IMG/VR virus record: IMGVR_UViG_3300042519_003104
Coordinates: 1 to 25,126 of that record
DNA length: 25,126 bases
Source of the DNA: a virus
Direction: 5' to 3' (one strand)
Part shown: in pieces, positions 687 to 23,151 of the stretch
Numbering within the stretch: the first letter of the stretch is position 1
Layout: every line of letters starts with the position of its first letter
The notes under the pieces: generated by a model
Databases searched by the model: none
What the model saw: the letters and a program-made list of their open reading frames with translations, nothing else
What the model was told of the DNA's origin: nothing
Translations under genes and position numbers: made by a program

Positions 687-691
687 ATTAT

Positions 692-2324: not shown

Positions 2325-2330
2325 AATAGC

Positions 2331-4341: not shown

Positions 4342-4361
4342 ACTAAATCTCCTTAGGAATT

Positions 4362-4377
4362 TATTTAGCGGTAAATA
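4362..4377. promoter_or_regulatory. divergent pair of late-promoter-like elements
   Basis: TATTTA (4362-4367) and TAAATA (4372-4377) form an inverted pair separated by GCGG. Read on the minus strand the first is GCTAAATA, containing the CTAAATA form described for cyanophage late promoters, 20 nt before the minus-strand ATG with its Shine-Dalgarno in between. Read on the plus strand the second is GGTAAATA, 5 nt before the sod ATG. The 41-nt gap contains nothing else, so it is a plausible two-way late promoter. Confidence 0.5.
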
Positions 4378-4382
4378 CATAT

Positions 4383-4949: not shown

Positions 4950-5301
4950 AAACCCACGTAATGTAGGATCATTTGCTAAAGATGATCCCAACATAGGCAC
5001 AGGTATGGTCGGTGCTCCGGCATGCGGAGATGTAATGAAATTACAGATAAAGGTAGACAATGATACAGGTCTTATTACAGATGCAAAATTTAAAACGTAT
5101 GGCTGCGGATCGGCTATCGCGAGTTCGAGCCTCATTACAGAATGGGTCAAAGGAAAAACCCTCGACCAAGCCGGAGCAATTAAAAACTCCGAAATCGCCG
5201 AAGAACTAGCCCTACCTCCAGTAAAGATACACTGTAGTATTCTAGCAGAGGATGCAATCAAAGCAGCCGTAAATGATTACCGTAACCGACACAGCCTGTA
5301 A
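4915..5301 (+). CDS. iscU: iron-sulfur cluster assembly scaffold IscU
   Basis: IscU holds a nascent [2Fe-2S] cluster built from IscS-derived sulfur before passing it to target proteins. The 128-residue protein matches full-length IscU and keeps every key residue: Cys37 and Asp39 (PACGD), Cys64 (YGCGSAIASSS), the LPPVK motif at 100-104 that binds the chaperone HscA, and His106-Cys107 just after it. ATG 4915 has a good Shine-Dalgarno (GGAGAG, 4903-4908) and lies within the end of sod; the stop overlaps iscA by 29 nt. No IscS, HscA, HscB or ferredoxin is nearby, so the phage protein would have to work with host partners. LPPVK being intact supports that. Probably a host-derived auxiliary gene. 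Confidence 0.95.
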   Translation: MAYSDKVIDHYENPRNVGSFAKDDPNIGTGMVGAPACGDVMKLQIKVDNDTGLITDAKFKTYGCGSAIASSSLITEWVKGKTLDQAGAIKNSEIAEELALPPVKIHCSILAEDAIKAAVNDYRNRHSL

Positions 5302-5599
5302 AAGAATTAAGCAAACACTTGCCAAACGTGGCAAGGGTGCGGGTATTCGAATAGGTGTTAGAACTACAGGGTGTAGTGGGTTGGCCTACGTATTAGAATA
5401 CGTAGATGACTACAAACCCGAAACTGGAGTAACTAATTTTGCTCAAGATGGTTTTGTTGTTTTGGTAGATGCCAAAAGTCTAGTGTATCTAAAAGGGATA
5501 ACTATGGATTGGGTTCGCAATGGGCTCAATGAGGGATTTGACTTCGTCAATCCCAACGAACGTGATCGATGCGGTTGCGGTGAAAGTTTTAGAGTTTAG
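5273..5599 (+). CDS. iscA: A-type iron-sulfur carrier protein IscA
   Basis: A-type carriers bind iron or a cluster and deliver it to apo-proteins. The 108-residue protein has the standard length and the three conserved cysteines, Cys34 (TTGCSGLAYVLEY) and Cys100/Cys102 (CGCGESF). The IscA/SufA/ErpA subfamilies are hard to separate by eye; IscA is chosen because iscU overlaps it directly. The ATG at 5273 lies within the last codons of iscU with no clear Shine-Dalgarno, so translation is probably coupled. The 3' end overlaps the convergent minus-strand zinc-ribbon gene by 11 nt, closing the sod-iscU-iscA unit. Confidence 0.92.
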   Translation: MITVTDTACKRIKQTLAKRGKGAGIRIGVRTTGCSGLAYVLEYVDDYKPETGVTNFAQDGFVVLVDAKSLVYLKGITMDWVRNGLNEGFDFVNPNERDRCGCGESFRV

Positions 5600-5946: not shown

Positions 5947-8900
5947 ATGGCAAGAAAAATTATTAATATTGGTGCAATTGGCAACGACGGCACCGGCGAC
6001 AGTATCAGAGACAGTTTTAGATCTGTCAACGACAACTTTAGAGAACTCTATAGTTCACTAGGACTAGGTGAAAAACTCACATTCATAGGTCTAGATGATA
6101 CACCCGAATCATTTCCTAACGATTATGAAAATGCGTTGGTTGTGATCAATGATACCACAGACGGCGTGGTTTTCAAAAAACTAGAAGCTGGCGTAGGTGT
6201 TCAAATTGATTTTGATACCAGTCAAAATTCCATTGTGGTCAACAGCTTGTTTTCAGATATTTCAGGCGATCCTAATCCAAATCTAGGAGGACCAGTTAAT
6301 GCTCAAAGTGGTGGAGTAAGATATCCTATTGGAAATTTACCCGATATAGGATCTTTTTCTGAACTCACTGATTCAATTGGCAGAATAAACACAATTCACG
6401 GATCCACTGCCACAGAAACAAACAGACTGGCGGCCAATAAGGGCTATGTAGATTCCAAGATATCCCTGCAGGGCATAGATGCTGTTGATCCTGCTACCAA
6501 TACAACCAACACTGCATTTGGTACCATGACCGGGCCGTTGATACTTTCAAGAGACCCTGTGGATGATGATGATGTGGCCTACAATGGTTTGATAGCTGCC
6601 ACCAAACGATATGTTGACAGTTCCGGTTATAGCAGCACAGTGAATCTGTATGTGAGTACAGCCGGGTTAGATGATCGACCAGGTGTTGGATTAGACCGAC
6701 AAGGTCGCAGTTTGGCCTATGCATATAAGACACTAGAAGCTGCTCTTAAACGTGCAGAAGAATTGGTGCTGGAAGCACCGTTAGAAATTGGCCCTTACAA
6801 GAAAGTTCTTACTTGGAACAACGGTGATGAGCCTTGTACTCTAGTAGAAATTGACGATACCAGTGCTACCGCAGGCACTGGTTTCAGTCCTGCATTTATT
6901 TTTATGAATGTGGACACAGTTGAAATTGTCAGCGGTGGCCTAAATTATCTACCCGGTGACATACTTACTGTGGCCACTGGTACCGGTACAGCAGCAAGAT
7001 ATCAGGTGCTGTCGGTTAGTCCTGGCGGCTCAGGAGGACGAGGACCAGTTACTGCCATTAGACAGATCACTGGCGGCAACTACAGCGTGTTGCCCGCACC
7101 AGTGGCTCCAGCAGCCACTACCTGTCCCGGCAGCAGTGTTGGTGTTAGAACTGGATGCACACTAAATCTCACATTCAAAGTGGCCAGAGTGCAGGTTAAC
7201 TCGGGAGGCCGTGGAACTGGATACGGTTTAGTGTCAGTGAGATTTGTTGGTGGTGGTGGTGGTGGAGCCTTTGGTGTAGCAGATGTTAGCGCAGTTGACG
7301 GCGGCATAAACAGCATCAGTATCACCAACGGAGGAACAGGGTTTACTTCGCAGCCATCTATACTTGTGAGTCTTCCAAGATTTAGATTGTTTACCAGCGG
7401 TTACAGAACAGACTTTACTGGAAATCCTGCATTGAGCACAGTGGCTGCTAACGCAGCCAAAGACATACGAGAAGGACTATATCTTCGTGGGGAAACGTCT
7501 GGAGCTCTTGCACAGATTCTAGCACACGACGGTACTTTGGACACGTCCGGCAATGAAGAATTTGATGTTGATGTTGTCAGTGGTGAATTTGTTGTTGGCG
7601 AGGTTATTTCATTCGGTGATGTAACCAAACGTATTCAAATTTCTGTATTTGTTGAAACTGGCATTTACCTAGAAAATTTACCATTACGTGTGCCTCAAAA
7701 CGTGGCAGTAATAGGTGATGAATTTCGTAGAACTATTATTAGACCACAGATAGGCTTTGACAGTTCCAGTCCCTGGGCATTTTTGAATTTTAGACGAGAT
7801 CCTGTGGTAGACGGACTGACTGTGGCAAATGAACTGTATGGTTATCACTATCTAGCAGATTCCACACAGCCTGTTTATCCCCTGATCAATAACAAAGGTA
7901 ACTATACCAGTGCTGCACGACTGATCACATTGAATAGAAAGTTTATTCAAGATCAGGTCATAGGTTGGATCAATAATCAAATTTTAACAAACACTGCACC
8001 ATTTACATCTGCATTTGACTACAATGAAGATATCTGTTATAGAGACGTTGGCTTGATCATAGACTCTATGGTATTTGATTTGAAATGGAGTGGACAGAAT
8101 CGCACAATTTCTGCTGCATTGAAATACAAGGGACCAGCAGTTCCGGGCAGTAATCCTGCACTAGCTATTGGTGCGCAACTGAGTCAGACTGTGGCCGGTA
8201 TTCAACGTATCAACACCTTGGCCCAAGACATTATCGACAATGTGAGTATTGCGGCACTGTATACATTGTCCGGTACTGTGGCCACTACTGCCACAGTACC
8301 AACACTACAGACTCTAGACGAAGGTCTAGTGGCAGAAGTAGGATCCGATACTGTGATCACATTGTTGACCAATGCCATAGTTGATGTTATCAGCAACAGT
8401 GGAACAGTAAACTATCCCAAAGACAACGGCGATATGGACATGTTCTTGTGTAACGATGCTGTAATCCTAAGAGCCATGACCTTCCAGGGTCAAGGTGGAT
8501 TTGCAATGGTATTAGATCCAGAGGGACAAATCCTTGCTAAATCTCCGTACTGTCAAGAATCTGCATCCTTTAGTAGAAGTATAAATGCCAAGGCATTTTC
8601 TGGTGGTATGTTTGTAGATGGATTCACCGGCAATCAGAAATTTGTCATAGACAGCAAAGACAGTAATATATTTTTACGAGTATCGGGACTGCTGAGACCG
8701 CCTAATACTCCCTGCAGCTTTATTGTCAGTGGTGAAATTTACAGAATAAACTACATTAGAGGGTATACATTTGGAACAGGTGCTGCTACTGCTACCACAG
8801 GTGGATTCAGCACAGCTCAGTTCATCTTGGATGAGCTGACACCTTACACACCTGCTGCTGGATCACGTGCCTGTACATTTAGTACTCCAAATATAACCAC

Positions 8901-11900
8901 TGCATCTGTTCACGAACTACAACCAGGTGCCATTGTGAAATTCAGTTCTACTGGAACACTGCCAACTGGTATCGCTGCCAATCAAGAATACTATGTGTTA
9001 CTGGCTGGATTTACGCTTACTCAATTCAGAGTTGCCGCAGTAGCTGGCAGTACCACAGCAGTGACTTTTGTAGGTGCCGGCTCGGGTACACACAGTTTTA
9101 TCAGAGTGTTTGAAGTTCTTATGCCCGGTAATCGTTCCATGCTTAGTAACGACTTTACCCAGGTCTGTGATCTAGGCTACGGACTTATAACCACCAACGG
9201 CGGATTGGCCGAAGCTGTGAGTATGTTTACCTACTACTGTCAAATTTCCTACTATTCATTGAACGGTGGACAGATTAGAAGCGTGGGTGGATCTAGTGCT
9301 CACGGAAACTTTGCATTGGTAGCGGAAGCCAGTGATCCATTAGAAGTTCCGACTCCCACAGGATTTTACACCGATCTTGCACAGACCGCAACTGTTTATG
9401 CTGCATCAGTTGATACGTTGAACGAAAAGGGAGAAAATATATTATATGTGACCTATGATGATTTCTTTCCTTTGCCGAACAGTGAATTAGAAATCAATCA
9501 TGGAGGCCAAATTGTACGATATGTTGTCACTACGGCACAGATCAGCGATGTTGCCACCAAACGTGCAAAATTAAATATCAGCACCGGCGGCGGACTTTTG
9601 GCAGCAGTGCCCCATGGACAACGTGTTACAATTAGAAACAACAGTTTCCATGTGTTACACGGAGACATTGTAGAGGTAGCAACTAGACCTAGTACTGCTC
9701 TGATACTAAATGACAGTAATTTTGTCTACAGACAATTGGAATTCACAGACTATGATTCCACATATGATCTAGAAACCTATACTATCACAGGTATAAACTA
9801 TGGCACTGGGGTGATAACCACTGATATCAATCATAGACAACGTGCAGGATATCAAGTGAGATTTGTCAAACCTCCAGGCGCAGTGTTGCCCAATGAGATT
9901 ACTGCAGGTGTCACAGTTGACGACGGTGTCATATACTATGTCAAGACTGCACCAACTCCTACCACATTTACCATTTCTGCTACAGAAACAGGCTCAGGCA
10001 TAACCACATTTACTGGATCGGCGGTGTCGGGAAGTCCCACAATGGTTCCTTACGGTCTAGCCCTGGCACAAGGTAGAGAAAATTATGATTATATAGAAAT
10101 CACTGTGTATGAGCCGGGTGTAGAAACAGGTGCGGCCAATACTGTAACCAGTATAAGCACTGCGGCCAATACGTTTACCAAAAACAGTCACGGACTCACA
10201 GCTGGTCAACCTGTGAGATTCAGTGCCAGTGTGTTGCCTGGAGGACTAACTGCAAACACAGTGTACTTTGTAACCACTTCTGGACTAACTGCCAATGATT
10301 TCAGTGTTAGTACCAGAGCGTTAGTAGACAGTACATTTATAGGTGTGCCTACTTCTTTGGCATTTTCAGTGGGGCCATCCCTGGGAACATCTACTGGCGC
10401 TGGTCCTTATTTTACAACCATTTCAAATATCATCTGTTTGGAAAATCTTATATTGGGATCAAGTTTGGTAGCAAAGCCAAATATTACCGGTGTTAGCGCA
10501 GTAGGTGACGGTGTTACCTGCACATTGACGTTTACCGCTCAAAACGTTCCTCCATATTTGCCATTCCAGTTGATTACTGTGAGCGCATTTGCTGTAGGTG
10601 GTGTGCCATTCAATGGCGCACAAACCGTGGTGACCTGTACCAATACCACTGTGACATTTGCCAGCGCAACCATTGCTACAGACAGCGGTGGTGTCATAGC
10701 TACTGGTGGTACAGGCGCATTAGGTGCGGACTCAGTGATTTATTCTGTTTCTGCAGCTACCAACAGCATTGTGGTGCAGTCTTCTACAGCAGCCACAACA
10801 GGAACAATAGCCTTTCAACTAGAAGGCAGTGTGTTAGATATCACCACAACCGGTACTGCCGTAACCTACAAACTGATTCAAGGCGAACGTGGTGATGCTA
10901 CCTTTGGTATAGGAAACCTAGGCGGCAGTGACGGTGATAGATTGTTGACTGGTATAGCTGCTGGTACATTTTATAGATTTGTACACGAAGGCCAAGAATA
11001 TGAAATAACCAATTATCAAGACAGTCTTACCACTGGTCAAGACTATGCACTACTAACAGTCAGTCCAGCATTGACACGCAGTGTGGTCAGATTCAATGAT
11101 ACGCCTACTCTAAAGGGATCGGTTCCTGGACCAAGCGCACTATCCGATGGTACACTGACCATTAGAATCAGTTTGACTCGTGTTACGTCACATGATCTAT
11201 TGGAAATTGGTACAGGTGGTTATGCCGATACCAACTATCCTAGCGAAATCTATGGACCTGCCGTTAATTCAATTATTTCAGTACCTACATATGCCACACA
11301 GGCAGATACAGAAACAGGCGAACTAGTATTACGTGCGCAGATGCAGGAACGAGGCTCGGGGCGTACATTCTTTGTGACCACTGACCAATTTGGTAACTTT
11401 AACGTTGGTCCGTTCTTCCGTGTTGATCAGGGTACTGGTACTGTTACATTCTCAGCTTCAATTGCGCTGAGTCAGTTAGACGGTCTAGGATTTAAACGTG
11501 GTACAACAATTTCTGAATTCTCCACAGCAATGGACGAAGGTCGTGTTGACGCGGTGCCTACAGAATCAGCGGTTAGAACCTACATTGGTCGTAGATTGGG
11601 ATTGGACTTCAATGGCAACATTGTTGCCCTAGGCGATCGTGTGCCAAACAATGTGGGCTTTATGGCTCTTAGTGGTGACTTGGCGTGGGTTGGACCTGCT
11701 GACATGGACATGAATTCGTACAAGATTGAAAATCTTGGGGTGCCTACATTAGCCAGTGATGCTGCCAGACTGGACAGTATTACAATTACTAATCTAAAAG
11801 ATACCGACGGAACCAGCCTATTTAATTTTTCACAGTCACAGGCAGGTCAATTGTTAGCCTTGGATGGTACGGGTAATACAATTATCAATGTGACACCTAC

Positions 11901-13368
11901 AGGTGAAGTTACTTTTGATATATTGTTAGGTGATAGTACTACCAACATCATAAGAACCACTATCAGTGATGGTGTCATTGACGATGCCAATATCATGTCC
12001 ACTGCGGCCATTGATCAGGCCAAGTTGAGTTTGAATGATGCTTATGCTACTATATCAGCCAGTATTACCAATGTGACTGCAACTGGTAGCGGCAGTACAG
12101 CTACTATAACATTCCCTGTAGCACAGTCCAGTGCTCCGTTTACAGCGGGACAAAAAATTGTAGTTACAGGATTGTCTGTGAGTGGATACAACGGAACTTA
12201 TACCGTTGCAACCTGCAACACCACTGTTGTTACCTATAGTAATACAACTACAGGATCAGCTATCAGTGGAACTGTAGCAGCTCTACGAGGTATATCAAGT
12301 TTTGACAGTGCTCAATTTACACTAACCAACGGTTGGGCTACAATCAAAGACAACGGTCTAGCATTGACCAAATTAGCACAGGTGGGAGCAGATAGACTAT
12401 TGGGCAACAGTACAGCTTCAACAGCCGATGTTGCTGAAGTGAGCTTTGCCACAGTGGTTGATGAAGGCCTGGCTTTGAGACTGTCGGACTATGGCAGCGC
12501 CACAAGTACTGGTTATCTACGACACACAGGCGGCGATGGCACTGTTCGTGCAAGTTGGGCATACAGCATTGTTGACGAAGCTTCTGCTGCCACTGTGAGC
12601 ACTTTGGTTAAACGTGATAGCAACGGAGATTTTGCTGCACGTAATGTAGATCTTGCTCAGCTTAAAATTGACAGCATATTATCCATTGACAGCAGCGCCA
12701 GCGGCACTGGTGGATTTCTTCAGTATTATGGTTATCTAGGACAAGTGGGTATTTACATAGGTGATGGTACAGTACCAGCTAGCGATAAGAAAACTTACTA
12801 CAACAACACACAGCACGTATTCCGCAGTCAAGACAGTGCCACAACATTTGCCACTCTCGACTCTACTGGTATTAGTGTAGCAGCATTAAAAAGTTGTACC
12901 AGTATCAGCACAGGCGCTGTGACAACACCTGGAACTATAGAGGGCTATTGGTCATTGAGTGGTAGCAGTAGATTCCAAGCTACCTATGCTGCTGACCTAG
13001 CAGAATACTACGAAGGTGACAAGGAGTATGCTGTGGGCACTGTGTTGATATTTGGTGGAGACAAAGAAGTTACAATAGCAAATCGACAAGGTGATCATAG
13101 AGTGGCTGGTGTAGTAAGCGATAATGCTGCCTATTCCATGAATGGTGATTGTCCGGGCTTTAAAAATCAAGTGGCTCTACAGGGTAGAGTTCCTTGTCGA
13201 GTAGTTGGAAAAATTGAGAAGGGAGACCTGCTGATTGCCAGCAACATTGCAGGCTGTGCTGTAAGTGCAGGCGGTGATGCTAGAACAGGCACAGTGATTG
13301 GCAAAGCACTAGAAAACTACAATTCAGATCATATTGGCACTATTGAAGTGGCCGTGGGAAGAAACTAA
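5947..13368 (+). CDS. giant tailspike/fibre-like virion protein with C-terminal chaperone-like domain
   Basis: The 2473-residue protein starts with the shared module (INIGAIGNDGTGDSIRDSF ... NDNFRELYSSLG, residues 6-40). Residues about 232-275 (YVSTAGLDDRPG ... AYKTLEAALKRAEEL) resemble the entry of right-handed beta-helix tailspikes. Glycine-rich modules follow (poly-Gly 435-440), then VPQNVAVIGDEFRRTIIRP (about 580-600), typical of aquatic phage tailspikes. Between about 970 and 1640 come repeated beta-modules of the form HxLxxGxxVxF ... LPxGLxxNxxYYV. Near 1800-1885 are GRTFFVTTDQFGNFNVGPFF and VPTESAVRTYIGRRLG. The last 130 residues (from about 2341, DLAEYYEGDKEYAVGTVLIF, RVAGVVSDN, GRVPCRVVGKIEKGDLL) resemble phage Peptidase_G2-type intramolecular chaperones, which trimerise and then cleave themselves off. 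Likely role: host-surface adhesin or depolymerase on the tail. Its stop overlaps the next ATG (TAATG). Virion role is confident; domain names are from memory of patterns. Confidence 0.88.
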   Translation: MARKIINIGAIGNDGTGDSIRDSFRSVNDNFRELYSSLGLGEKLTFIGLDDTPESFPNDYENALVVINDTTDGVVFKKLEAGVGVQIDFDTSQNSIVVNSLFSDISGDPNPNLGGPVNAQSGGVRYPIGNLPDIGSFSELTDSIGRINTIHGSTATETNRLAANKGYVDSKISLQGIDAVDPATNTTNTAFGTMTGPLILSRDPVDDDDVAYNGLIAATKRYVDSSGYSSTVNLYVSTAGLDDRPGVGLDRQGRSLAYAYKTLEAALKRAEELVLEAPLEIGPYKKVLTWNNGDEPCTLVEIDDTSATAGTGFSPAFIFMNVDTVEIVSGGLNYLPGDILTVATGTGTAARYQVLSVSPGGSGGRGPVTAIRQITGGNYSVLPAPVAPAATTCPGSSVGVRTGCTLNLTFKVARVQVNSGGRGTGYGLVSVRFVGGGGGGAFGVADVSAVDGGINSISITNGGTGFTSQPSILVSLPRFRLFTSGYRTDFTGNPALSTVAANAAKDIREGLYLRGETSGALAQILAHDGTLDTSGNEEFDVDVVSGEFVVGEVISFGDVTKRIQISVFVETGIYLENLPLRVPQNVAVIGDEFRRTIIRPQIGFDSSSPWAFLNFRRDPVVDGLTVANELYGYHYLADSTQPVYPLINNKGNYTSAARLITLNRKFIQDQVIGWINNQILTNTAPFTSAFDYNEDICYRDVGLIIDSMVFDLKWSGQNRTISAALKYKGPAVPGSNPALAIGAQLSQTVAGIQRINTLAQDIIDNVSIAALYTLSGTVATTATVPTLQTLDEGLVAEVGSDTVITLLTNAIVDVISNSGTVNYPKDNGDMDMFLCNDAVILRAMTFQGQGGFAMVLDPEGQILAKSPYCQESASFSRSINAKAFSGGMFVDGFTGNQKFVIDSKDSNIFLRVSGLLRPPNTPCSFIVSGEIYRINYIRGYTFGTGAATATTGGFSTAQFILDELTPYTPAAGSRACTFSTPNITTASVHELQPGAIVKFSSTGTLPTGIAANQEYYVLLAGFTLTQFRVAAVAGSTTAVTFVGAGSGTHSFIRVFEVLMPGNRSMLSNDFTQVCDLGYGLITTNGGLAEAVSMFTYYCQISYYSLNGGQIRSVGGSSAHGNFALVAEASDPLEVPTPTGFYTDLAQTATVYAASVDTLNEKGENILYVTYDDFFPLPNSELEINHGGQIVRYVVTTAQISDVATKRAKLNISTGGGLLAAVPHGQRVTIRNNSFHVLHGDIVEVATRPSTALILNDSNFVYRQLEFTDYDSTYDLETYTITGINYGTGVITTDINHRQRAGYQVRFVKPPGAVLPNEITAGVTVDDGVIYYVKTAPTPTTFTISATETGSGITTFTGSAVSGSPTMVPYGLALAQGRENYDYIEITVYEPGVETGAANTVTSISTAANTFTKNSHGLTAGQPVRFSASVLPGGLTANTVYFVTTSGLTANDFSVSTRALVDSTFIGVPTSLAFSVGPSLGTSTGAGPYFTTISNIICLENLILGSSLVAKPNITGVSAVGDGVTCTLTFTAQNVPPYLPFQLITVSAFAVGGVPFNGAQTVVTCTNTTVTFASATIATDSGGVIATGGTGALGADSVIYSVSAATNSIVVQSSTAATTGTIAFQLEGSVLDITTTGTAVTYKLIQGERGDATFGIGNLGGSDGDRLLTGIAAGTFYRFVHEGQEYEITNYQDSLTTGQDYALLTVSPALTRSVVRFNDTPTLKGSVPGPSALSDGTLTIRISLTRVTSHDLLEIGTGGYADTNYPSEIYGPAVNSIISVPTYATQADTETGELVLRAQMQERGSGRTFFVTTDQFGNFNVGPFFRVDQGTGTVTFSASIALSQLDGLGFKRGTTISEFSTAMDEGRVDAVPTESAVRTYIGRRLGLDFNGNIVALGDRVPNNVGFMALSGDLAWVGPADMDMNSYKIENLGVPTLASDAARLDSITITNLKDTDGTSLFNFSQSQAGQLLALDGTGNTIINVTPTGEVTFDILLGDSTTNIIRTTISDGVIDDANIMSTAAIDQAKLSLNDAYATISASITNVTATGSGSTATITFPVAQSSAPFTAGQKIVVTGLSVSGYNGTYTVATCNTTVVTYSNTTTGSAISGTVAALRGISSFDSAQFTLTNGWATIKDNGLALTKLAQVGADRLLGNSTASTADVAEVSFATVVDEGLALRLSDYGSATSTGYLRHTGGDGTVRASWAYSIVDEASAATVSTLVKRDSNGDFAARNVDLAQLKIDSILSIDSSASGTGGFLQYYGYLGQVGIYIGDGTVPASDKKTYYNNTQHVFRSQDSATTFATLDSTGISVAALKSCTSISTGAVTTPGTIEGYWSLSGSSRFQATYAADLAEYYEGDKEYAVGTVLIFGGDKEVTIANRQGDHRVAGVVSDNAAYSMNGDCPGFKNQVALQGRVPCRVVGKIEKGDLLIASNIAGCAVSAGGDARTGTVIGKALENYNSDHIGTIEVAVGRN

Positions 13369-14879
13369 TGGCACAACAAACACTAAACGCAGGCAGTCCT
13401 CCAATAGTATGGAGCACAGTAGAAGATGCATTTACAAAAATAAATGCCAACTTTGACGAACTGTATGGTAGCATAGGAGGTCCGGGAGGAGTATTAGACT
13501 TTACCAGTCTCAGCACTGATATTAAACCCAGTGCCAGCGAAGTCTACGATCTTGGTAGTCCAACAGCTCGGTGGAGAGATCTTTATCTAGCTGGATCAAG
13601 TTTATATCTAGGCTCGGCACAGATAACCGCTGACGGAGCTGGTGTTGTGAATTTGCCGGCTGGCACTACTGTTGCAGGAGAGTTAATTAGAAATCCTGCA
13701 GAAACCAATTTCAAAACAATTACAGTTAGTGGTCAATCAAATATTGTTGCAGATAGTTTTGAAGACACATTGACTGTAGCAGCAGGCAATGCTGGTATAA
13801 CATTGACCACAAATGCCGGCACTGACACATTAACCATTGCCAACAGCGGTGTTACAGACCTCACAGGAACTGCGGGGCAGATTGCAGTGAGTGCTGCAAC
13901 GGGTAGTATAACACTAACCAATTTGGGAGTCACTAGTCTAACTGGCACAGCAGGTGGCATCGGAGTAAGTGCTGCAACTGGCGGTATAACATTGACCAAT
14001 CTCGGTGTCAAGCAGATCGTAGGAACTGCCAGTCAGATTGGTGTAACTGGTGATGGCACTGGAATAGTAACCATTACCAATTTGGCTCCTGCAAGTCCAA
14101 CATTTAGATTTATTGTTGTAGACGGTGCTACTCTGCAGCCAGTGGCAGCTGACAATATTTCAGATACATTGAATTTGATATCTGGTCCTGGTTTAACAAT
14201 TACCAAAGACACTGCCACAGATACACTGACATTTAGTGTAAACAGCAATTTAGATATCAGAGGTTCGGTGTTTGCAGATGACTCCACCATGTTGGTAGAT
14301 GCTACCAATGGCGTACTGAGAGGCACGTTGATCGGTACCGTGGTCGGTGACTTAAAAGGATCTATATTTGGCGACGACTCAACAAAGATTGTTGATGCTG
14401 TGGAGAACAAAGTATACGCAGAATTTTTTGGCAACTTAACTGGTAATGTAACTGGTAATTCTAGCTCGGCAACAGTTTCAACTACATTAGATATTACAGA
14501 TACCAACGGACTGACAACTGTTTATTATCCTACGTTTGTTGAGAATAGAACTACTGGTCAAACTGTTAGAGCAGATATTGATCTATCATACAGAACAGAT
14601 ACCAATACACTAACAGTACCAAACATTGCTGGTAACTTAACTGGGTCAGTTACCGGTAATATTTTTACATCATTGATTGATTCATCAGATTCATCAGCAA
14701 TTACTGTAACTCCTGCAACAATATTCAGTTCGGATGTAACTGTAGAAAATGATCTAGACGTTACACAACGATTAAGAGTTCAAGGCAGCAGGGTTATTAA
14801 TATAACAGAATTACAAGCCATTGTGGCGGTCAGCATAGACTTTACTGACTTCCAAACAAGAATAGCTGGTTTGGTATAA
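13368..14879 (+). CDS. tail-fibre-like virion protein with tandem repeats
   Basis: The 503-residue protein begins with a diverged copy of the shared module (TLNAGSPPIVWSTVEDAF-TKINANFDELYGSIG). Next is YDLGSPTARWRDLYLAGSSLYLG (about residues 58-82), a fibre motif that also occurs in the second giant protein as DLGSSTLPWRSLYV. Residues 161-239 are three tandem repeats of 26-27 residues (LTGTAGxIxVSAATGxITLTNLGV). Further on are two copies of the GSxFxDDSTxxVDA motif (about 302-345) and short GNLTGxVTGN repeats. The composition is Thr/Gly/Ala/Ser-rich with almost no Cys, as in fibrous beta-structured trimers. It is joined to the previous gene by TAATG and is 12 nt before the next. Probably a fibre or connector subunit; receptor unknown. 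Confidence 0.85.
   Translation: MAQQTLNAGSPPIVWSTVEDAFTKINANFDELYGSIGGPGGVLDFTSLSTDIKPSASEVYDLGSPTARWRDLYLAGSSLYLGSAQITADGAGVVNLPAGTTVAGELIRNPAETNFKTITVSGQSNIVADSFEDTLTVAAGNAGITLTTNAGTDTLTIANSGVTDLTGTAGQIAVSAATGSITLTNLGVTSLTGTAGGIGVSAATGGITLTNLGVKQIVGTASQIGVTGDGTGIVTITNLAPASPTFRFIVVDGATLQPVAADNISDTLNLISGPGLTITKDTATDTLTFSVNSNLDIRGSVFADDSTMLVDATNGVLRGTLIGTVVGDLKGSIFGDDSTKIVDAVENKVYAEFFGNLTGNVTGNSSSATVSTTLDITDTNGLTTVYYPTFVENRTTGQTVRADIDLSYRTDTNTLTVPNIAGNLTGSVTGNIFTSLIDSSDSSAITVTPATIFSSDVTVENDLDVTQRLRVQGSRVINITELQAIVAVSIDFTDFQTRIAGLV
13848..14084 (+). repeat. three tandem coding repeats of 78, 78 and 81 nt
   Basis: Units start at 13848, 13926 and 14004, each beginning with a GV pair and ending ITLTNL or similar. 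The second unit is close to the first at protein level; the third has diverged (KQIVGTASQIGVTGDG) and gained one codon. They probably build a repeating beta-fibre shaft. Confidence 0.85.
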
Positions 14880-14891
14880 TTGGAGCGATAA

Positions 14892-17800
14892 ATGGCAAAA
14901 CAGAATATTAATGTAGGCACCACAGCCAACGACAAGAAAGGCGATAGCCTACGAGCTGCGTTTCAAAAAGTAAATGCTAACTTCACAGAACTTTACACAG
15001 CACTGGGAATAAATGCAGATGTCAATTTAAATATTGGCGCATTTGAATTCACTGGTAGCACCCTGAGTACCACAGACAGCACACCCGTTGTAATTGATCA
15101 AGCAACCACCATAACCAGTAACTTAACAGTTGGCGGAGATATGTTGCCTAGTGTGGCCAATGGTGGCGATCTAGGTAGTTCAACATTGCCTTGGCGCAGT
15201 CTGTATGTCAGCAATAACACAATTTTCCTAGGTGGCACAGCATTATCTGTAGATAGTCAAGGTAATCTATTAGTGGGAGGGCAGTTTATAGCAGATGTTG
15301 GCACAGCAGCCTGGAACAGTATCACAGGCAAGCCCACATTCGCTACAGTGGCTACTACAGGTGCCTATGCTGACCTAACTGGCAAGCCAACTATACCAAC
15401 CAGCTTTGACAGCTTAGTCAACGGTGCTAACACAGTTAGTCTTGGCTCAGATGGTAAACTAACACTACCAAACGGTTCTACCATAGGAGATGCTGATACT
15501 TCCGCTGGTGTCCCAATAACCACAGCCCGTGGCACAATATTGTTGGGCAACCTAGCAGAGTGTGCAGGCGGGGAAAGTCATTTCCACATAATGAAAGGCG
15601 GCCAGCAGGCCATTGATTTGTTCTTGGGTGATGACAGCAACTATGTAAAACTGCCAAGCACTGGTGGGGTTGAAATAGCCACACAAAATTTCAATCAATA
15701 TTCTTGGATCTTTAGCACAGATGGTAATTTAACTATCCCAGGTGATATCCGCAGTGAAGGCAATATCAATATTGACATCAACCTGTCAGACTCAACTCTG
15801 CACCGTTGGCAGTTCGGAGAAGATGGTGAGTTGACATTCCCTAACGGTGGTCAAATATCAAATTATCCAGGCGGCGTAGGTGTCAGCAACGACAGTTGGT
15901 TTGTGACACCCGACAACGGTACCGGCGGTATTTCCAGCCAAGACGGTCAGCAATATATACAGATAAACGATAATTTGCATGTTGAAATCGGCACAAGTTA
16001 CGGCACAGAAAATGAATCTATTTGGCAATTTGGCCTTGATGGCAATCTAACACTGCCAGTAGGTGGAGACATTTTAGACAGCACAGGCACAAGTGTGTTA
16101 GGCGTTGGTGGCACAGGCGATAGTCTAACCAGTAACAATGACATCAACATCACAGTCAACAGTGAAGACAGCAGTAGCTATACTTGGAACTTTGGACAGA
16201 CAGGTGATTTAACCGCTCCTGGCGACATTGTTGTCGGCGGCGTCGATGGCGGACACATTTACATAGACAGTACCGAAGGTGCCAATACCAGTGTGCGTTG
16301 GATCAATATGCCTGTAAATGAAGACGCTAGTATCATTAGAGCCTACACTGGCAATCCCGATGAGGAAACAGGTCTAAATCGAGGTCGAATTCAACTAGCG
16401 TGGCAAGACAGTGATCGTAGCGGTCTAAGAATTATATCATATGATCGCACTGATTCAGAAGATACAGTTGAACACGAATGGACCTTCCAAGGCGACGGCG
16501 GATTACAATTCCCAGATGGTACTACACAGACCACAGCCTACACTGGCGGTGGCGGTAATGCCAACACTGGAGACTTTACATTTAGCGAAGACACTATCAC
16601 AAACGGTGACGGACTGATACTGTCCACCAATAGAGGCACATTGGCCATGGGTACTGACATGGAAGTGCCAGGTGTAGCACAACACTTCCATATTGCCTTT
16701 GACGGTAGTAACAGTAATCCACCCGCCAGTGACCTGTTCCTAGGTGATGACCACAACTATGTTAAATTGCCTGGATATGAACTCAACCCAACTGCTCAAT
16801 TTGGTGTGGAGATTGGCACAGATAATAGAAACCTTGGCCCACAGAATATTGAAGTTGGTACGGTAGATGAACTTGTGCCACCGGGTGGCGTGTGGCGGGT
16901 GTTTATTGACCACGAGACCTATCCTAACTTGGGCTCCGCTGTCAGCGTAGGTGATACAGTGACCACATCATGGGGAACACCCATAACTGCCACAATCACA
17001 GACGTCGTTGAAGAACCTGGTAATTGGTGGAAAATTCATGTTGCTCAAGATATTACCGCTGGATTTCTTGATGAGGGTGAAACAGTTTCATTTGGTGCTT
17101 CAGGAGACAGTCATGTTTGGCGTTTTGGCACAGATGGTGATTTAACTATTCCAGGTGATATTAAGAGCGAAAACGACATCAACATCACAGTCAACAGTGA
17201 AGATAGCAGTAGCTATACTTGGAACTTTGGACAGACTGGTATACTAACAGCACCAGATGATATTGTCACTGGTACAAATGGTGGTAGATTTGTACAAGAC
17301 TGTGCCGATGGCACAACTTCAATGCGTTGGATCAATGTAGAGGTTGACGAAGATAGCACACAACTTATTCGAGCCTACAGTGGTGAAGGTGACAGTGACG
17401 AACGAGCACAGATTAAACTAAACTGGCAGGATGAAGATCGCAGTGGCCTAACCATTAGATCATTTGATCGCACAGATACAGAAGATACTGTTAGCCATGA
17501 TTGGAAATTTCAGGGCGACGGTAGCATAGAATTCCCAGACGGCAGTATACAGACCACAGCCTACACTGGACAGAATAGTGGCGCAATAGGTACTTTTTTT
17601 GTCGTAGTCAACGAAGACGGCACAGTCAGCAAATCCACAGACGGTGTCACTTGGACCACGGCAGTTGATCTAGTTCAAGGCATTGGTCGTGTGGCCACCA
17701 ACGGTGTCACAGTGGCCATGATTCAAAGCGATCAACTGAGTTGGACCACATTCGCTGGGCTGGAAGCATCAACATACGTAAGCGGCAGCAGTGGCACTGC

Positions 17801-20800
17801 CGATGAAATCGGTGGTCAAGATATTGACTGGAATCAAATTGACTACGCCGGCGGATACTTTGTGGCAGTAGGTAGTTATACTCCAACCGGATCAAGTTTT
17901 ACACAAGGTGTATACGGCTATAGTACAGATGGTAGAATTTGGGCTTTTCTAACTGTTGATCAAACAGTGGTAGAGTTTTTTGGTAACGATCCTGTGGACA
18001 GCGATTGGGAGTTTTCAGACGTAGACTACAATGGAGTGGGTTGGATGTTCAGCGTCGGCGACAACGAAAGCGGTGATGCCAACGGCGGTGGCGTATACAT
18101 CACTGACCTAACAGCCACAGTGACTTCTGCTAGATGTTTTAGTATGAACATAACTTACCGGGCAGCATGGAATGGCTCAGCGTGGTACATGGAAGGTGAA
18201 GACAGTATAGCCGGTGTCAACACCAACCTCGATCCACGCAACGGCACATTCGCCGGGCCAATTGATCCATGGGCTACTGATATTCAAGATCTTGGCATTG
18301 ACGCGGGTGACACTGTTGAAACAGCAGGCGGTAATGGATACCTTGCGGCAGGAGACGGTGACGGACACGTGGCGTGGAGTGATGACAACGGGCAAACCTG
18401 GCAGATTGTCACGCCGATACCATACACTCGTACTATTTCAGCAATTACACAAGCCAGCCCACCACAGGTAACATTCAGTGGCAGTGGGAATAATGGAACC
18501 TCGGGCGAGAAAGTCGTTATCAGCGGTTCGTCAGTCTCAGGCTATAACGGCACGTTTTACTGGAAGTCCGCCGATAATTCTTTATACACAGACCAAATAT
18601 TAGACACACCATTTGACACCAGTGGACTAGCACCGTTCACTGGCACAGCAACACTGACTTGGAGTAACGGAACATACATTGACGCCATGGACTACATCAA
18701 TGGTTATTTCTACATTGGCAATGACGATGAACAAATTGCTCGTACCACCGACTTTGTATCTTGGACCATTTTAGACGATCAAAGCAGTAGCGAATTTGAC
18801 TATTGGAATGACATTGCTGGCTTTGTGGGAACAGGTGGCGACATTGGCGACATTGTGGTTGAAGTGGAAGAAGGTACCACAACACTGACCTTGGCCAACA
18901 AAGATTTTACTCTTGAAACCACCAGAACAGGTACTCAAGATGCTGACATAAATCTTACTGCCGCAGACGATATTTGGATTGAAGCCAATGGTAATGATAT
19001 TTCTCTTTCAGCGGCAGATCAAGTTAGAATTAACACAGGCTGGTCCACCAATGACGACCCAGAAGAGTATCCTACTTGGACGTTTGACAATGTTGGTGAT
19101 TTAACTATTCCAGGAAACATCAAGAGCGAAGGCAACATCAACCTTGACATTAACTTGAGTGACTCTACTCTAAGACGCTGGACATTTGGGGAAGATGGCA
19201 ATCTAAATCTACCAACTGGCGGTGACATTCTTGACAGCGAAGGTAACTCAGTATTGGGTGGTGCTACAGGTGATGCCAATGTTTGGGTGCAGACATTTGA
19301 AACGCAAAACGGTGCTCCAACAGACATTGTGTCACTAGCAATCAGCGTGGAATACGATTCAGCGGGCAATGTGATTGCCTTGTTCAATCATTTCAACGAC
19401 GATGGTGGTGGTAGTAGTTATTATTCCGTGGGCAAGTACACCACAACTGGCGCCAAGATATGGACAGCAAGATTTGACGATGAATTTTACACAGACGGTT
19501 GGGGGCTGGCAGTGGACAACGACAGCAACTCGATATATGTAGCAGGCGAGACAGATGTTGAAGGACAGGACAATGCCACTTTGACCAAAATTGACAGCAC
19601 TGATGGCAGTGTACTATGGAGCAAGATCTATGACTTTGGATTCAGTAGTCAAAGTTCAGTAGTGGATGTGGCTTCAGACGGTGACCCGGTTATGGTTGGA
19701 TATGCCTACAACGGCACAGATGACTATGTTGCCACTACCAAGGTAGATGCCGCAGACGGCTCAGTCATATGGTCAAGAGCACTGGACGGTCAGGCCGACG
19801 AAGAAGCCTACGGTATGGCAGTGGGTCCTACAGGTGAAGTGGTGGCCATTGGTTACATGGAGCAGTTGGGTATTCTTGATGCCGCCGAAACACTATACGC
19901 AGATCCAGTAAGCAACGCTAACTGGACAATAAATCAAACAGGAGTGTTAGCCGGCGCACTAGGGTTTGATGTTAGTTTTGCGGCAGGTGTTCCAACATTT
20001 GCCAACATTAGTGACACAGCAGGCGGCAGAACAGTGGATGACACAGTTGCTACTATCCTTGGCTCTATACTTGGCGGTGCTGATGGTGTAGACGATATGG
20101 TAGTCAAAGTAGCCACACTGGCCGCTAATAATACAGACAATCACATGCTTGTGGTCAAATACAACAGCGCAGGATCTATACAGTGGCAAAAGGCCATACT
20201 GTTTGATGAGGGTTTTGATTGCCGTGGAGCAGATGCTGACATCGACAGTGCGGGTAACATCTATGTAACTGGCAGTTATGAATATAGTTTTGAAAGCTAC
20301 ACAACCAGTGCCCTAAGCATACTGAAACTGGACGGCACGGGTGCTAAACAGTGGAGCAGAAGAGTAACAGGTGACTGTGATACATTTGGCGTCAGCGTGG
20401 TAGTTGGTGCTGATGACAAACTGTACTTGTCAGCCATGACTGGCAACGATGCCAATAGTGAGTACACTTGGGTCGCGGCCAAGTATGGCATTGACGGTAC
20501 TGTAGAATGGCAAAGACTCATAGACAATACCACAGGTTGGTCATTTGCCGGTAACATCTTTGGCGCCGACGGCGGTGGTAGTAACATAGCAGTCAAAGAC
20601 GGGTATGTGCTACTTGGCGGCGGTTTTGGTAATTTACCAGAAGATTTTCCTCAAGCCACAGTGGTTCAGGTCTCGGCTGCTGGAGATGTATTCACTGTTG
20701 GCGACTGGGATTTCAAAGCAGCCTCATTCAGCGGAGTGTTGTCTGCTGATGCCAGCGATATCACAGTGGTCAACGCAGGCAAGACCGACACAGACAATGC

Positions 20801-22574
20801 TGAAAACATCACCACCGGCACAGTGACACTGACCACAGAAGTCAGCGGATTCTTGATAGGCACATTATACTCAACCACTGCCAACAACAGATTAATCAAC
20901 GGCAGTAACGAATTAGTTTTAGGTACAACAGGAACTGTGACATTGCCACAAGGCGGTACGATCACAGAAGGATATGTTACCAGCAATCCCACTATACAAC
21001 TTACACCAGCAACGCCAACGGTGGCCAGTCAGAAGTTGGTGATCAAAGGCGGCAGCAATTATAATTTCACTGACAACGGTATAACCTTAAGTTATCAAGA
21101 TAACACTGCTAACAACGGCGATAGTCTTGATTTCTATATTAACAACGCAATCACTTATGCTAACCAAACACTCTACTGGTGGATCTATCCAGAGGGTGCT
21201 GGCCTAACAACCCCAAGTTCTGGCACAATAGCACTAAATGGATCGGGTAATAGTGGAGAGGAATCTATCAGTTTTGTGGTAGACAGTGATGCTTATGAAT
21301 TTACTGTGCGGGTATCACCTGAAGAAGATAATTACGATCCTGCGAATGTAGGTGTTGAATCAGGTTTGATAAACGGAGACGCACCCGCATATGGTGATCA
21401 TCACTTACACTTGACCACAGGTGATTTAACAGAAACCAGTATCTTTCTGGGCACTGACGATCACAATGTGCGTACTACCACTGACGGTAAGATACAGATA
21501 ACCACTCCTAATGATACTAACAATGTTTGGGAGTTTGACGCAACTGGTAACTTAACCATTCCAGGCAATATCCGTAGTGAAGGCAATATTGATATTGAGA
21601 TTAATTTAAGTGATAGCACACTACGTAGATGGAGTTTTGGTGAAGATGGTAACTTAACATTACCAAATGGTATGACCATAGACAGCGAAGGTAGTTTAGG
21701 CAGTAACGCATTTGTTCGAATCGGTGGCAACAATACTCGGATCAGTATTGACGACAATGGAGCACCTCCAGGAATCGTAATGGCAACTGATATTACCGGT
21801 ACAGGTAACTATTGGTTGTTTAGTTCAGATGGTATTACATCACTACCTGGAGATTTAGAATTAAACTCTACCGGTAATATCCGCAGTGAAAACGCTATCA
21901 ACATTGAAGTCAATCTTTCAGACTCAACACTACGCAGATGGCGATTTGGTGAGGATGGCGAGTTAACATTCCCAGACAATACTGTACAGACAACGGCTTA
22001 TACTGGCAATACCACTGCGACTACTCCAACAACAACTGGTATCCCTAATGGGTTTGCCCTGGATGCTTACACTAATACTAACCTCACTCCAGGAAACTAT
22101 TCCAACATACTTGTTGGGTTTGATGGCAAAAATGTTACGCTAGGAGTTCAGGTTAGCAGTGAATATAATATTACTATTTTTGGTATTACAAATGCGTCGC
22201 CGGCTACTTTTATTATCAGTGACAGCGCCGTAATACCCGGTAATCTTATTGGCGGTGCTACACCTACTGATGACTTGACTATTACTGTAGACAGTCTAGA
22301 TCTTGTTGCTATAGACCTAACTAAAACTATCAACAAACTAACAGACGGTGAGTATACGCTGGCCGACGGTGTAGAAGGTCAGATCATGTATTTGGTAAGA
22401 CAGGACGGTTCAACTGCGGCAAATATATCTGTAGTAGTTGCCAACGCACGTTGGGACGGAGGTCTATTTCCAGATCAACTTGTTGTTCCATTTCAAATCC
22501 CTTTTACTGATATGGTCACAATAATCTTTACAGACGGTGCTTGGCAAGCAAGCACATTTGGCAGTTTAACTTAA
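14892..22574 (+). CDS. giant modular fibre-like virion protein with two beta-propeller regions
   Basis: The 2560-residue protein starts with a good copy of the shared module (INVGTTANDKKGDSLRAAF-QKVNANFTELYTALG) after a Shine-Dalgarno (TGGAG, 14881-14885). Then come DLGSSTLPWRSLYV (about 92-105) and ITGKPTFATVATTGAYADL (about 138-156), both common in aquatic phage fibres. A module LTIPGDIRSEGNINI ... FGEDGxLxxPNG recurs near residues 272-320, 1396-1440, 2213-2262 and 2310-2365. Residues about 895-1310 carry four Asp-boxes (STDGVTW 915, STDGRIW 1011, SDDNGQTW 1163, TTDFVSW 1285), as in BNR/sialidase-type propellers. Residues about 1461-1937 carry SBBP-like blades (DSAGNIYVTG, LDGTGAKQWSR, IDGTVEWQR). 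HxH motifs occur at 230-232, 598-600 and 2171-2173. Propellers suggest glycan binding on the host surface; catalysis is not shown. No signal peptide. Role is inferred from modules and position. Confidence 0.87.
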   Translation: MAKQNINVGTTANDKKGDSLRAAFQKVNANFTELYTALGINADVNLNIGAFEFTGSTLSTTDSTPVVIDQATTITSNLTVGGDMLPSVANGGDLGSSTLPWRSLYVSNNTIFLGGTALSVDSQGNLLVGGQFIADVGTAAWNSITGKPTFATVATTGAYADLTGKPTIPTSFDSLVNGANTVSLGSDGKLTLPNGSTIGDADTSAGVPITTARGTILLGNLAECAGGESHFHIMKGGQQAIDLFLGDDSNYVKLPSTGGVEIATQNFNQYSWIFSTDGNLTIPGDIRSEGNINIDINLSDSTLHRWQFGEDGELTFPNGGQISNYPGGVGVSNDSWFVTPDNGTGGISSQDGQQYIQINDNLHVEIGTSYGTENESIWQFGLDGNLTLPVGGDILDSTGTSVLGVGGTGDSLTSNNDINITVNSEDSSSYTWNFGQTGDLTAPGDIVVGGVDGGHIYIDSTEGANTSVRWINMPVNEDASIIRAYTGNPDEETGLNRGRIQLAWQDSDRSGLRIISYDRTDSEDTVEHEWTFQGDGGLQFPDGTTQTTAYTGGGGNANTGDFTFSEDTITNGDGLILSTNRGTLAMGTDMEVPGVAQHFHIAFDGSNSNPPASDLFLGDDHNYVKLPGYELNPTAQFGVEIGTDNRNLGPQNIEVGTVDELVPPGGVWRVFIDHETYPNLGSAVSVGDTVTTSWGTPITATITDVVEEPGNWWKIHVAQDITAGFLDEGETVSFGASGDSHVWRFGTDGDLTIPGDIKSENDINITVNSEDSSSYTWNFGQTGILTAPDDIVTGTNGGRFVQDCADGTTSMRWINVEVDEDSTQLIRAYSGEGDSDERAQIKLNWQDEDRSGLTIRSFDRTDTEDTVSHDWKFQGDGSIEFPDGSIQTTAYTGQNSGAIGTFFVVVNEDGTVSKSTDGVTWTTAVDLVQGIGRVATNGVTVAMIQSDQLSWTTFAGLEASTYVSGSSGTADEIGGQDIDWNQIDYAGGYFVAVGSYTPTGSSFTQGVYGYSTDGRIWAFLTVDQTVVEFFGNDPVDSDWEFSDVDYNGVGWMFSVGDNESGDANGGGVYITDLTATVTSARCFSMNITYRAAWNGSAWYMEGEDSIAGVNTNLDPRNGTFAGPIDPWATDIQDLGIDAGDTVETAGGNGYLAAGDGDGHVAWSDDNGQTWQIVTPIPYTRTISAITQASPPQVTFSGSGNNGTSGEKVVISGSSVSGYNGTFYWKSADNSLYTDQILDTPFDTSGLAPFTGTATLTWSNGTYIDAMDYINGYFYIGNDDEQIARTTDFVSWTILDDQSSSEFDYWNDIAGFVGTGGDIGDIVVEVEEGTTTLTLANKDFTLETTRTGTQDADINLTAADDIWIEANGNDISLSAADQVRINTGWSTNDDPEEYPTWTFDNVGDLTIPGNIKSEGNINLDINLSDSTLRRWTFGEDGNLNLPTGGDILDSEGNSVLGGATGDANVWVQTFETQNGAPTDIVSLAISVEYDSAGNVIALFNHFNDDGGGSSYYSVGKYTTTGAKIWTARFDDEFYTDGWGLAVDNDSNSIYVAGETDVEGQDNATLTKIDSTDGSVLWSKIYDFGFSSQSSVVDVASDGDPVMVGYAYNGTDDYVATTKVDAADGSVIWSRALDGQADEEAYGMAVGPTGEVVAIGYMEQLGILDAAETLYADPVSNANWTINQTGVLAGALGFDVSFAAGVPTFANISDTAGGRTVDDTVATILGSILGGADGVDDMVVKVATLAANNTDNHMLVVKYNSAGSIQWQKAILFDEGFDCRGADADIDSAGNIYVTGSYEYSFESYTTSALSILKLDGTGAKQWSRRVTGDCDTFGVSVVVGADDKLYLSAMTGNDANSEYTWVAAKYGIDGTVEWQRLIDNTTGWSFAGNIFGADGGGSNIAVKDGYVLLGGGFGNLPEDFPQATVVQVSAAGDVFTVGDWDFKAASFSGVLSADASDITVVNAGKTDTDNAENITTGTVTLTTEVSGFLIGTLYSTTANNRLINGSNELVLGTTGTVTLPQGGTITEGYVTSNPTIQLTPATPTVASQKLVIKGGSNYNFTDNGITLSYQDNTANNGDSLDFYINNAITYANQTLYWWIYPEGAGLTTPSSGTIALNGSGNSGEESISFVVDSDAYEFTVRVSPEEDNYDPANVGVESGLINGDAPAYGDHHLHLTTGDLTETSIFLGTDDHNVRTTTDGKIQITTPNDTNNVWEFDATGNLTIPGNIRSEGNIDIEINLSDSTLRRWSFGEDGNLTLPNGMTIDSEGSLGSNAFVRIGGNNTRISIDDNGAPPGIVMATDITGTGNYWLFSSDGITSLPGDLELNSTGNIRSENAINIEVNLSDSTLRRWRFGEDGELTFPDNTVQTTAYTGNTTATTPTTTGIPNGFALDAYTNTNLTPGNYSNILVGFDGKNVTLGVQVSSEYNITIFGITNASPATFIISDSAVIPGNLIGGATPTDDLTITVDSLDLVAIDLTKTINKLTDGEYTLADGVEGQIMYLVRQDGSTAANISVVVANARWDGGLFPDQLVVPFQIPFTDMVTIIFTDGAWQASTFGSLT
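16137..16205 (+). repeat. 69-nt near-identical repeat, copy A (copy B at 17172-17240)
   Basis: This stretch encodes NDINITVNSEDSSSYTWNFG plus QTG and recurs at 17172-17240 with three base differences, all synonymous. It is the start of a longer duplication of about 135 residues (16137-16550 versus 17172-17571) whose remainder has diverged but keeps RWIN, IRAY, DRSGL, DRTD-EDTV and QTTAYTG. Confidence 0.9.
17172..17240 (+). repeat. 69-nt near-identical repeat, copy B
   Basis: Second copy of the 69-nt segment at 16137-16205, within the same giant virion gene; the encoded residues are identical. The much higher identity of this segment than of the flanking duplicated sequence suggests either strong constraint or recent gene conversion. 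Confidence 0.9.
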
Positions 22575-22575
22575 A

Positions 22576-22584
22576 CGGTAAATA
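22576..22584 (+). promoter_or_regulatory. late-promoter-like element before the 182-residue virion gene
   Basis: CGGTAAATA starts two bases after the stop of the second giant gene, 18 nt before the ATG at 22603, with a Shine-Dalgarno-like AAAGAGAG (22589-22596) between. The same CGGTAAATA core occurs before sod. It would allow separate late expression of the last two virion genes. Confidence 0.45.
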
Positions 22585-22602
22585 TACTAAAGAGAGCGAA
22601 AT

Positions 22603-23151
22603 ATGGCCATACAAGAAATTAATTTAGGTAATGTAGTCAATGACGGACTAGGTGACGACCTACGATCAGCTTTTCAAAAGGTTAACGCTAACTTTGCAGA
22701 ATTATTAACCACCTTTACTTTAACTGGTGCAAATACTCAAGAAGTAGGCGCTAAAGTTTTTAAAGAAAAAACAGGTAGCATATTAAAATTTAGAAATTTG
22801 ATATCTGGTACAAAAATTGTTGTCACAGAATTTGACAACAGTATTGAAATTCGTTCCACACAACCAGATGCTTTTACCAGTATTACTACTAATGCAGGAA
22901 TAGTACAGGCAGGAGATAATACCAATATTGCCATCCAAGGCGGAAACAATATCACAGTTACAGGATCTACTCCATATATCACTGTTGATACCAACTTGGA
23001 TCTAAATGCATTACTGTTAGGTTTTGATTTTGGGCCTGTTGGCAATCAATATACCACAGCTCTGCAGGTGCTATCCGCTGCTGCCAATGTGGACTTTGGT
23101 ACTTTTCCAACACCTGGACCATTTAACATAGACCTTGGCACATTGGCCTAA
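22603..23151 (+). CDS. small virion protein with the shared N-terminal module
   Basis: The 182-residue protein opens with INLGNVVNDGLGDDLRSAF-QKVNANFAELL, the fourth copy of the module found in the three preceding genes. The rest is a short beta-rich region (FRNLISGTKIVVTEFDNSIEIRS, then NIAIQGGNNITVTGSTPYITVDT) ending in a Gly/Pro-containing tail. It has no repeats and no large receptor-binding part, so it may be the minimal form of the family: a connector, plug or assembly partner using the same docking site. A Shine-Dalgarno (AAAGAGAG) precedes the ATG. The next gene starts 9 nt after its stop. Confidence 0.82.
   Translation: MAIQEINLGNVVNDGLGDDLRSAFQKVNANFAELLTTFTLTGANTQEVGAKVFKEKTGSILKFRNLISGTKIVVTEFDNSIEIRSTQPDAFTSITTNAGIVQAGDNTNIAIQGGNNITVTGSTPYITVDTNLDLNALLLGFDFGPVGNQYTTALQVLSAAANVDFGTFPTPGPFNIDLGTLA

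Follow-up and report, generated by a model that had tools for sequence, protein, structure and literature searches.

A four-gene array sharing a T4 gp9/gp10-type N-terminal module in a phage genome fragment

Results

Organisation of the locus

The window (the whole stretch of DNA analysed, a virus record of 25,126 bases with relatives present in IMG/VR) contains four open reading frames of 2473, 503, 2560 and 182 amino acids, arranged head to tail on the plus strand and almost abutting, whose positions are referred to here as slots A, B, C and D. Protein 1 (slot A, positions 5947 to 13368) is a long tail-fibre-like protein: it matches the tail-fibre PHROGs 9851 and 5342, its tblastn matches are to cyanophage and pelagiphage fibres (all below 60% identity), PHROG 22593 spans positions 12973 to 13350, and the C-terminal part (12922 to 13134) shows a weak likeness to Peptidase_G2, an intramolecular chaperone or autoprocessing domain (E 4.8e-4, 20 bits against a cut-off of 25). 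Slot A proteins are usually 2150 to 2990 amino acids long. Protein 2 (slot B, 13368 to 14879) is fibre-like and aligns with relatives, and it had no match in PHROG or Pfam; slot B proteins range from 477 to 811 amino acids. Protein 3 (slot C, 14892 to 22574) has a fibre-like body rich in repeats, which relatives either replace by another or lack, and shares shaft repeats with a fibre-like gene of different N-terminus in the relative L011. Protein 4 (slot D, 22603 to 23151) is a conserved small protein. The T4 late promoter TATAAATA had no match in the window, against 1.3 expected.

The array is followed by an Ig-like gene (He_PIG; PF05345, E 3.9e-19; 23161 to 25125, plus strand), which lacks the module and is truncated by the end of the window; an Ig-like gene also comes after slot D in relatives. 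The Ig-like protein matched none of the isolate-phage records by tblastn at E 1e-5, and its identification as cyanophage VrlC was unconvincing (best score 4.8 bits, for an S-H38 protein, when a profile of eight relatives was compared with 15 reference proteins, one of them misframed). Directly upstream of the array are a NifU_N gene and a Fe-S_biosyn gene (window 4915 to 5599; L033:19442-19807), and in the distant relative G007 slot A is immediately preceded by a frame that is IscA-like as judged by eye. Positions 1 to 4949 carry host-type metabolic genes (PTPS/QueD-like, DAHP/KDO8P-synthase-like, UvdE and Fe/Mn superoxide dismutase) and also a glycosyltransferase (PHROG 1962).

A common module at the four N-termini

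The first-pass annotation of this DNA had described a common N-terminal segment at the heads of the four successive ORFs, starting near M-A. The segment is real: it comprises about 38 residues starting at residue 1, and all four proteins open exactly with M-A. In a six-frame translation of the window its core, [VI]NxNFx[ED]L, is present four times, each time at the head of a different one of these ORFs, compared with a single occurrence over 500 codon-shuffled windows together. Leave-one-out profiles recovered copies 1, 3 and 4 among 8031 frames over 36 to 40 of 40 positions (copy 1, 5947 to 6066, E 7e-12; copy 3, 14892 to 15011, E 5.6e-16; copy 4, 22603 to 22722, E 2.2e-13); copy 2 (13368 to 13481), in which PPIVW replaces the ND..GD part, was recovered among the same frames via its helix half only (positions 22 to 39, E 2.2e-4). 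A profile made from relatives of copy 2 matches the canonical modules (hhalign probability 97.4%, E 1.1e-11, 39 columns), indicating that copy 2 belongs to the module family. This copy had been thought to have lost its GD part; instead, the PP(I/L)xW variant recurs in relatives as a conserved subtype, and copy 2 is consequently a subtype rather than a decayed copy. The slot B gene, which carries this type, is absent in the more distant G007 and G008, whose arrays read A-C-D. AlphaFold monomers were of low confidence (pLDDT 45.4 for protein 4 with a 16-row alignment, 38.8 for protein 2 with a 9-row alignment), and that of protein 4 includes, at low confidence, a short helix at residues 20 to 37.

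A further candidate module was rejected. The N-terminus FPVAGQDNDTQxFRDNF of a nearby gene in relatives (19 distinct examples of 26) is module-like by eye and reached an hhalign probability of 1.4%, indicating that the profile comparison discriminates. The FPVAGQ family is itself conserved and located downstream of the Ig-like gene (L026:11592-12332 and 18 more distinct sequences).

Identity of the module

When the four-copy profile was searched against all PDB sequences, the matches were T4 gp10 (E 2.6e-10), T4 gp9 (E 0.0039), and the gp10 (1.8e-6) and gp9-like connector (4.8e-5) of entry 9f4a, the next match being at 0.043. Family PF07880 matches copy 1 (26.6 bits, 29.2 in a second scan), copy 3 (23.3 bits) and copy 4 (19.2 bits), copy 1 alone being above the cut-off of 25; copy 2 is unmatched by PF07880 and is tied to the family by the profile-profile comparison alone. 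PHROG 958 matches proteins 1 and 4, and PHROG 677 matches protein 4 (both 3.3e-7 for the module of protein 4). The four segments therefore belong, over about 40 positions, to the T4 gp9/gp10 N-terminal module family. On these profile matches the module is the extreme N-terminus known from T4 gp9 and gp10, and what had been noticed at first was an already known module, seen without its name.

The segment is also tied to virion proteins, so that the concern that it might be a generic, low-specificity sequence was not borne out: with a composite query for the module, 1,763 of 50,697 isolate-phage records gave a match at E <= 0.05, and the 60 matches listed comprise 53 annotated as baseplate or tail protein, six as hypothetical only and one unannotated.

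The bodies behind the module

Likeness to the gp9/gp10 families ends early. PF07880 matches stop at family position 38 to 49 of 175, PHROG 958/677 matches in proteins 1 and 4 stop at residue 44 to 63, and the gp9/gp10 family matches in protein 3 stop near residue 40; the match of protein 3 to cyanophage proteins annotated as gp9 or gp10 (P-SSM7, S-H38, S-WAM1) runs from residue 1 to between 48 and 168. Orthology to T4 gp9 or gp10, understood as likeness over the middle and C-terminal domains, was not found for any of the four proteins in Pfam or PHROG. As these matches end early and the bodies differ, the shared part appears to be an anchor, and the bodies resemble fibre shafts and, in one case, a conserved small protein, rather than gp9 or gp10. 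PHROG 677, the gp9 family, does align with two relatives along extended, gap-rich stretches (1-391 and 1-397), so some remote likeness of the bodies to gp9 is conceivable. The downstream parts had been described as unrelated in length and architecture; some relatedness exists, proteins 2 and 3 aligning at 25.7% identity over 245 columns including the module (E 7.7e-7).

Protein 4 consists of the module, a conserved body of about 140 amino acids and a conserved C-terminus, FDFG...NVDFGT...DLG (23026 to 23148; 16 sequences aligned). In a pattern search of the frames collected by then, this C-terminus was found in 28 frames, all from slot D relatives. Per block, 34 to 39 of 40 residues are identical between protein 4 and its L007 relative, 21 to 30 of about 40 in L016 and L017, and just 10 to 13 of 36 to 40 behind the module in G008. 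Among isolate phages, protein 4 matched a single record by tblastn at E 1e-5, through the module only. Its full-length conservation in close relatives makes the slot D protein more likely a structural part than a variable adhesin.

Survey of modules in other phages

Searching IMG/VR with protein 4 gave 19 loci. A 14-row module profile was then searched and the best 80 of 580 confirmed stretches were kept, a locus set that favours good matches, contains some redundancy and is truncated where contigs end. Within these best 80 of 580, 39 loci carry one module, 21 two, nine three and 11 four, and in 145 of 152 frames the module begins no further in than residue 20, while in none does it begin after residue 60. 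The four-module loci of this best-80 set are eight members of a second array family and three of the window type (L049, L055, L071). The second family, known from nine loci (L064, L069, L095, L097, L103, L106, L111, L112, L119), differs from the window type in its bodies and in the subtype of its first slot.

Among 12 isolate phages searched with the profile, T4, IT22 and phi-ST2 have two modules each, S-SSM7 three (dispersed), six phages one each, and S-CAM3 and P-SSM2 none. Four modules in a row were found in none of the 16 phages profiled (these 12 and four jumbo phages), and no four-member array was found in print in the open-licence PMC full text.

Module subtypes follow the position in the array

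Unsupervised clustering was applied to the 185 non-identical modules out of 224, and the subtype clusters track array position. In the 14 of its loci that contain more than one module, the slot A cluster (20 members) always supplies the first; the slot D cluster (21 members) supplies the last in all cases but one (20 of 21). That case is L009, where an additional module gene further downstream encodes a collagen-bodied protein of 304 amino acids (PF07880 scores 40.6 bits in the twin locus, L010). The modules of slot C share one large mixed cluster of 96 with second-family members and single-module loci; the separation is thus clean for A, B and D, not for C. Once identical module sets were dropped (48 arrays reduced to 40), the order A-B-C-D, missing members allowed, held in 37 of 40 arrays; the three exceptions are L009 and two second-family loci mistyped by the motif-based slot rule, which mistypes L106 and L113. 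Mean same-slot identity across loci is 0.73 for A, 0.52 for B, 0.60 for C and 0.62 for D, compared with 0.39 between the slots of one locus. Nearest neighbours agreed in slot in 83 of 85 cases, a figure that is partly circular as the labels were taken from module motifs.

The collagen-bodied module gene is followed by a subtilase gene (963 amino acids) behind the Ig-like gene in L010 (3429-7238) and L011. A pairing of a module gene with an S8 protease, like that of the collagen-bodied protein and the subtilase, occurs in cyanophages too.

Swapped bodies and stubs in slot C

In five relatives the slot C module is identical to the window copy at 28 to 40 of 40 positions and the body is exchanged. 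Complete slot C proteins of window-type arrays measure 70, 74, 82, 84, 89, 110, 114, 150 and 175 amino acids at the short end, 332, 480, 484, 525, 586, 624 and 770 in the middle range, and 1192, 1264 and 2560 at the long end. Stubs of 70 to 114 amino acids occupy slot C in eight loci. It had been suggested that the 182-amino-acid protein 4 was the minimal form of the family; given its conserved body, that role falls to these slot C stubs.

The stubs look like real genes, judging from their context and codons. Slot D starts 9 to 32 bases after the stub in seven of the eight loci, and in L053 the gap is 737 bases and contains another frame (not a fibre by eye). The stretch upstream of the stub has a GGAG-like or AAGGA-like leader in six of seven cases; the seventh stretch is truncated where the contig stops. 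The stubs of L071 and L073 differ in two codons, both synonymously, and those of L053 and L072 (ungapped, 58 codons) by 27 synonymous and 13 non-synonymous differences. The PF07880 cut-off was passed by four of the five stubs scanned.

Discussion

We favour, with a probability of about 0.6, the explanation that the locus encodes an enlarged gp9/gp10-type anchor array, in which fibres are fused straight to the anchor, the anchors form trimeric baseplate plugs and each subtype has one site. The anchor would consist of a brief extended stretch and then a single helix, as in T4 gp9 and gp10. By extension from T4, each protein would probably be homotrimeric, its three N-termini together making a plug, and this plug would be held by a site at the baseplate periphery; the fibre bodies being fused directly to the anchor, a separate gp9-like adaptor would be unneeded for them. 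The slot pattern suggests an anchor subtype specific to each array position and, most likely, a dedicated site for each. Slot A would hold a long fibre (in the window, one with a chaperone-like C-terminus), slot B a fibre-like protein, slot C a fibre whose shaft can be lengthened, swapped or trimmed to almost nothing, and slot D usually a conserved small protein, more likely structural. On this view the virus would probably bear fibres or plugs of several kinds, seated at separate sites of the baseplate, and we infer that the array fibres would bind receptors. The early proposal that one docking or assembly module was fused to different parts agrees with the gp9/gp10 match and with the N-terminal position of the module in almost all frames of the best-80 set.

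PMC3004832 describes T4 gp9 and gp10 as trimers, the first 200 residues of gp10 being 23% identical to gp9; the gp9 N-terminal domain binds gp7, whereas gp12 sits on the gp10 N-terminal domain and gp10 touches gp7 near Cys555, so that the docking role is documented more for gp9 than for gp10. As in this array, the first 40 or so residues of gp9 and gp10 are homologous and the two genes lie side by side, with a distinct version of the module in each. The differences are that T4 has two members in place of four in a row, that the middle and C-terminal gp9/gp10 domains were undetected here, and that fibres are bound to the anchor in T4 and fused to it here. The gp9/gp10-annotated proteins of P-SSM7, S-H38 and S-WAM1 likewise combine the module with a different body, but each of these phages has one copy, adjoining protease and gp8 genes. 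In CBA120 (TSP1-4; Ackermannviridae) and RaK2, several receptor-binding proteins are also assembled via gp10-related N-terminal parts, and most Limestonevirus TSP4 proteins, according to PMC11414711, are an anchor without a receptor-binding domain, comparable to the slot C stubs. Branching in CBA120 and RaK2 proceeds through XD domains from a single anchor, whereas here there is one anchor per protein and the XD domain was undetected by sequence.

The resemblance to CBA120 and RaK2 raises the alternative of a branched complex in which one member carries the others by gp10-like domains. T4 gp10-like domains do organise such complexes, as PMC8825819 and PMC10253068 describe; the parts shared in CBA120 and RaK2 are, however, the gp10 XD2/XD3 jellyrolls and not the first 40 residues, and the four bodies lack any gp10 match beyond the N-terminal region at the sequence level (Pfam and PHROG). 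We give this alternative the least weight. Hardly more credible is the original suggestion of one attachment site, with adhesins competing for it or stacked on it and the mixture conferring a broad host range. The modules are homologous and cross-binding is conceivable, and multi-adhesin phages exist (PMC11414711), but modules are less alike between slots than within a slot, their order is nearly constant, and slot D is conserved, not variable, in close relatives. Since subtypes follow position and their order is nearly constant, distinct docking sites are favoured, indirectly, over competition for one, and a single shared site is the less likely reading.

The module might also be mainly a trimerisation or chain-register element (an N-terminal helix bundle), other parts attaching the protein. 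This would suit the single short helix predicted at low confidence for residues 20 to 37 of protein 4, the requirement of fibres for an N-terminal register, and the distance of the gp10 contact with gp7 from the N-terminus (PMC3004832). Position-linked subtypes, on the other hand, are not expected of a pure trimerisation element, stubs of 70 to 89 amino acids leave almost no body to register, and T4 gp9, according to the same source, docks to gp7 by its N-terminal domain; we regard this role as unlikely, although the most serious of the three alternatives.

The favoured anchor array can be extended, tentatively, to at least four distinct docking sites per wedge, each with one anchor subtype, the slot C plug being obligatory and the shafts exchangeable. 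The slot C site would then have to be filled for assembly even when fibreless, which would explain why a plug of 70 to 90 amino acids is retained, and shafts ranging from almost nothing to about 2500 residues could be gained or lost on a fixed anchor with the baseplate untouched. An anchor array would turn the vague idea of a many-adhesin phage into a concrete anatomy. Environmental phages carry many large tail genes that are unannotated; the short anchor singles out those that are probably part of the baseplate and indicates their slot, and the slot-linked subtypes can serve to annotate fibres in metagenomic data. With the stubs, nature has already set up an experiment that asks whether a slot is under selection for docking or for receptor binding.

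Phage affiliation is suggested by the relatives. In G002 the array has identical lengths and a protein 4 identical to that of the window, and the nearest matches to its clamp loader come from PA5oct-type Pseudomonas jumbo phages (51%); G007, which is more distant, has a DNA polymerase most similar to those of Phosso, Atu_ph07 and PA5oct (46-54%). The likeness of these two proteins makes it probable that the window comes from an uncultivated lineage close to giant phages of the PA5oct, Phosso and Atu_ph07 type. Contrary to this affiliation, the profile search found no module in three of four such giant phages (PA5oct, Phosso, Atu_ph07) and one weak match in the fourth (XacN1, E 0.025). As for baseplate wedge genes, the T4 gp8 and gp25 families were found in none of nine fragments with window-type modules, all nine being incomplete genomes; the same search detected both families in T4, P-SSM7 and G012, and gp25 only in G013. 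In pelagi- and cyanomyophages, PMC7029224 reports, gp7 is missing and VrlC takes its place. These points, the modules missing from PA5oct, Phosso and Atu_ph07, the low-confidence AlphaFold monomers and the extended PHROG 677 matches of two relatives count against the favoured anchor array. Other genes observed on the related contigs include at least two fatty acid desaturase genes in G002 (L027, L031; two scanned, both PF00487), several desaturase-like frames recognised by eye in G003, and GroEL-like, DnaK-like and curli-like genes, also by eye, in G018 (L139, L140), an 88-kb contig with slot A and slot C.
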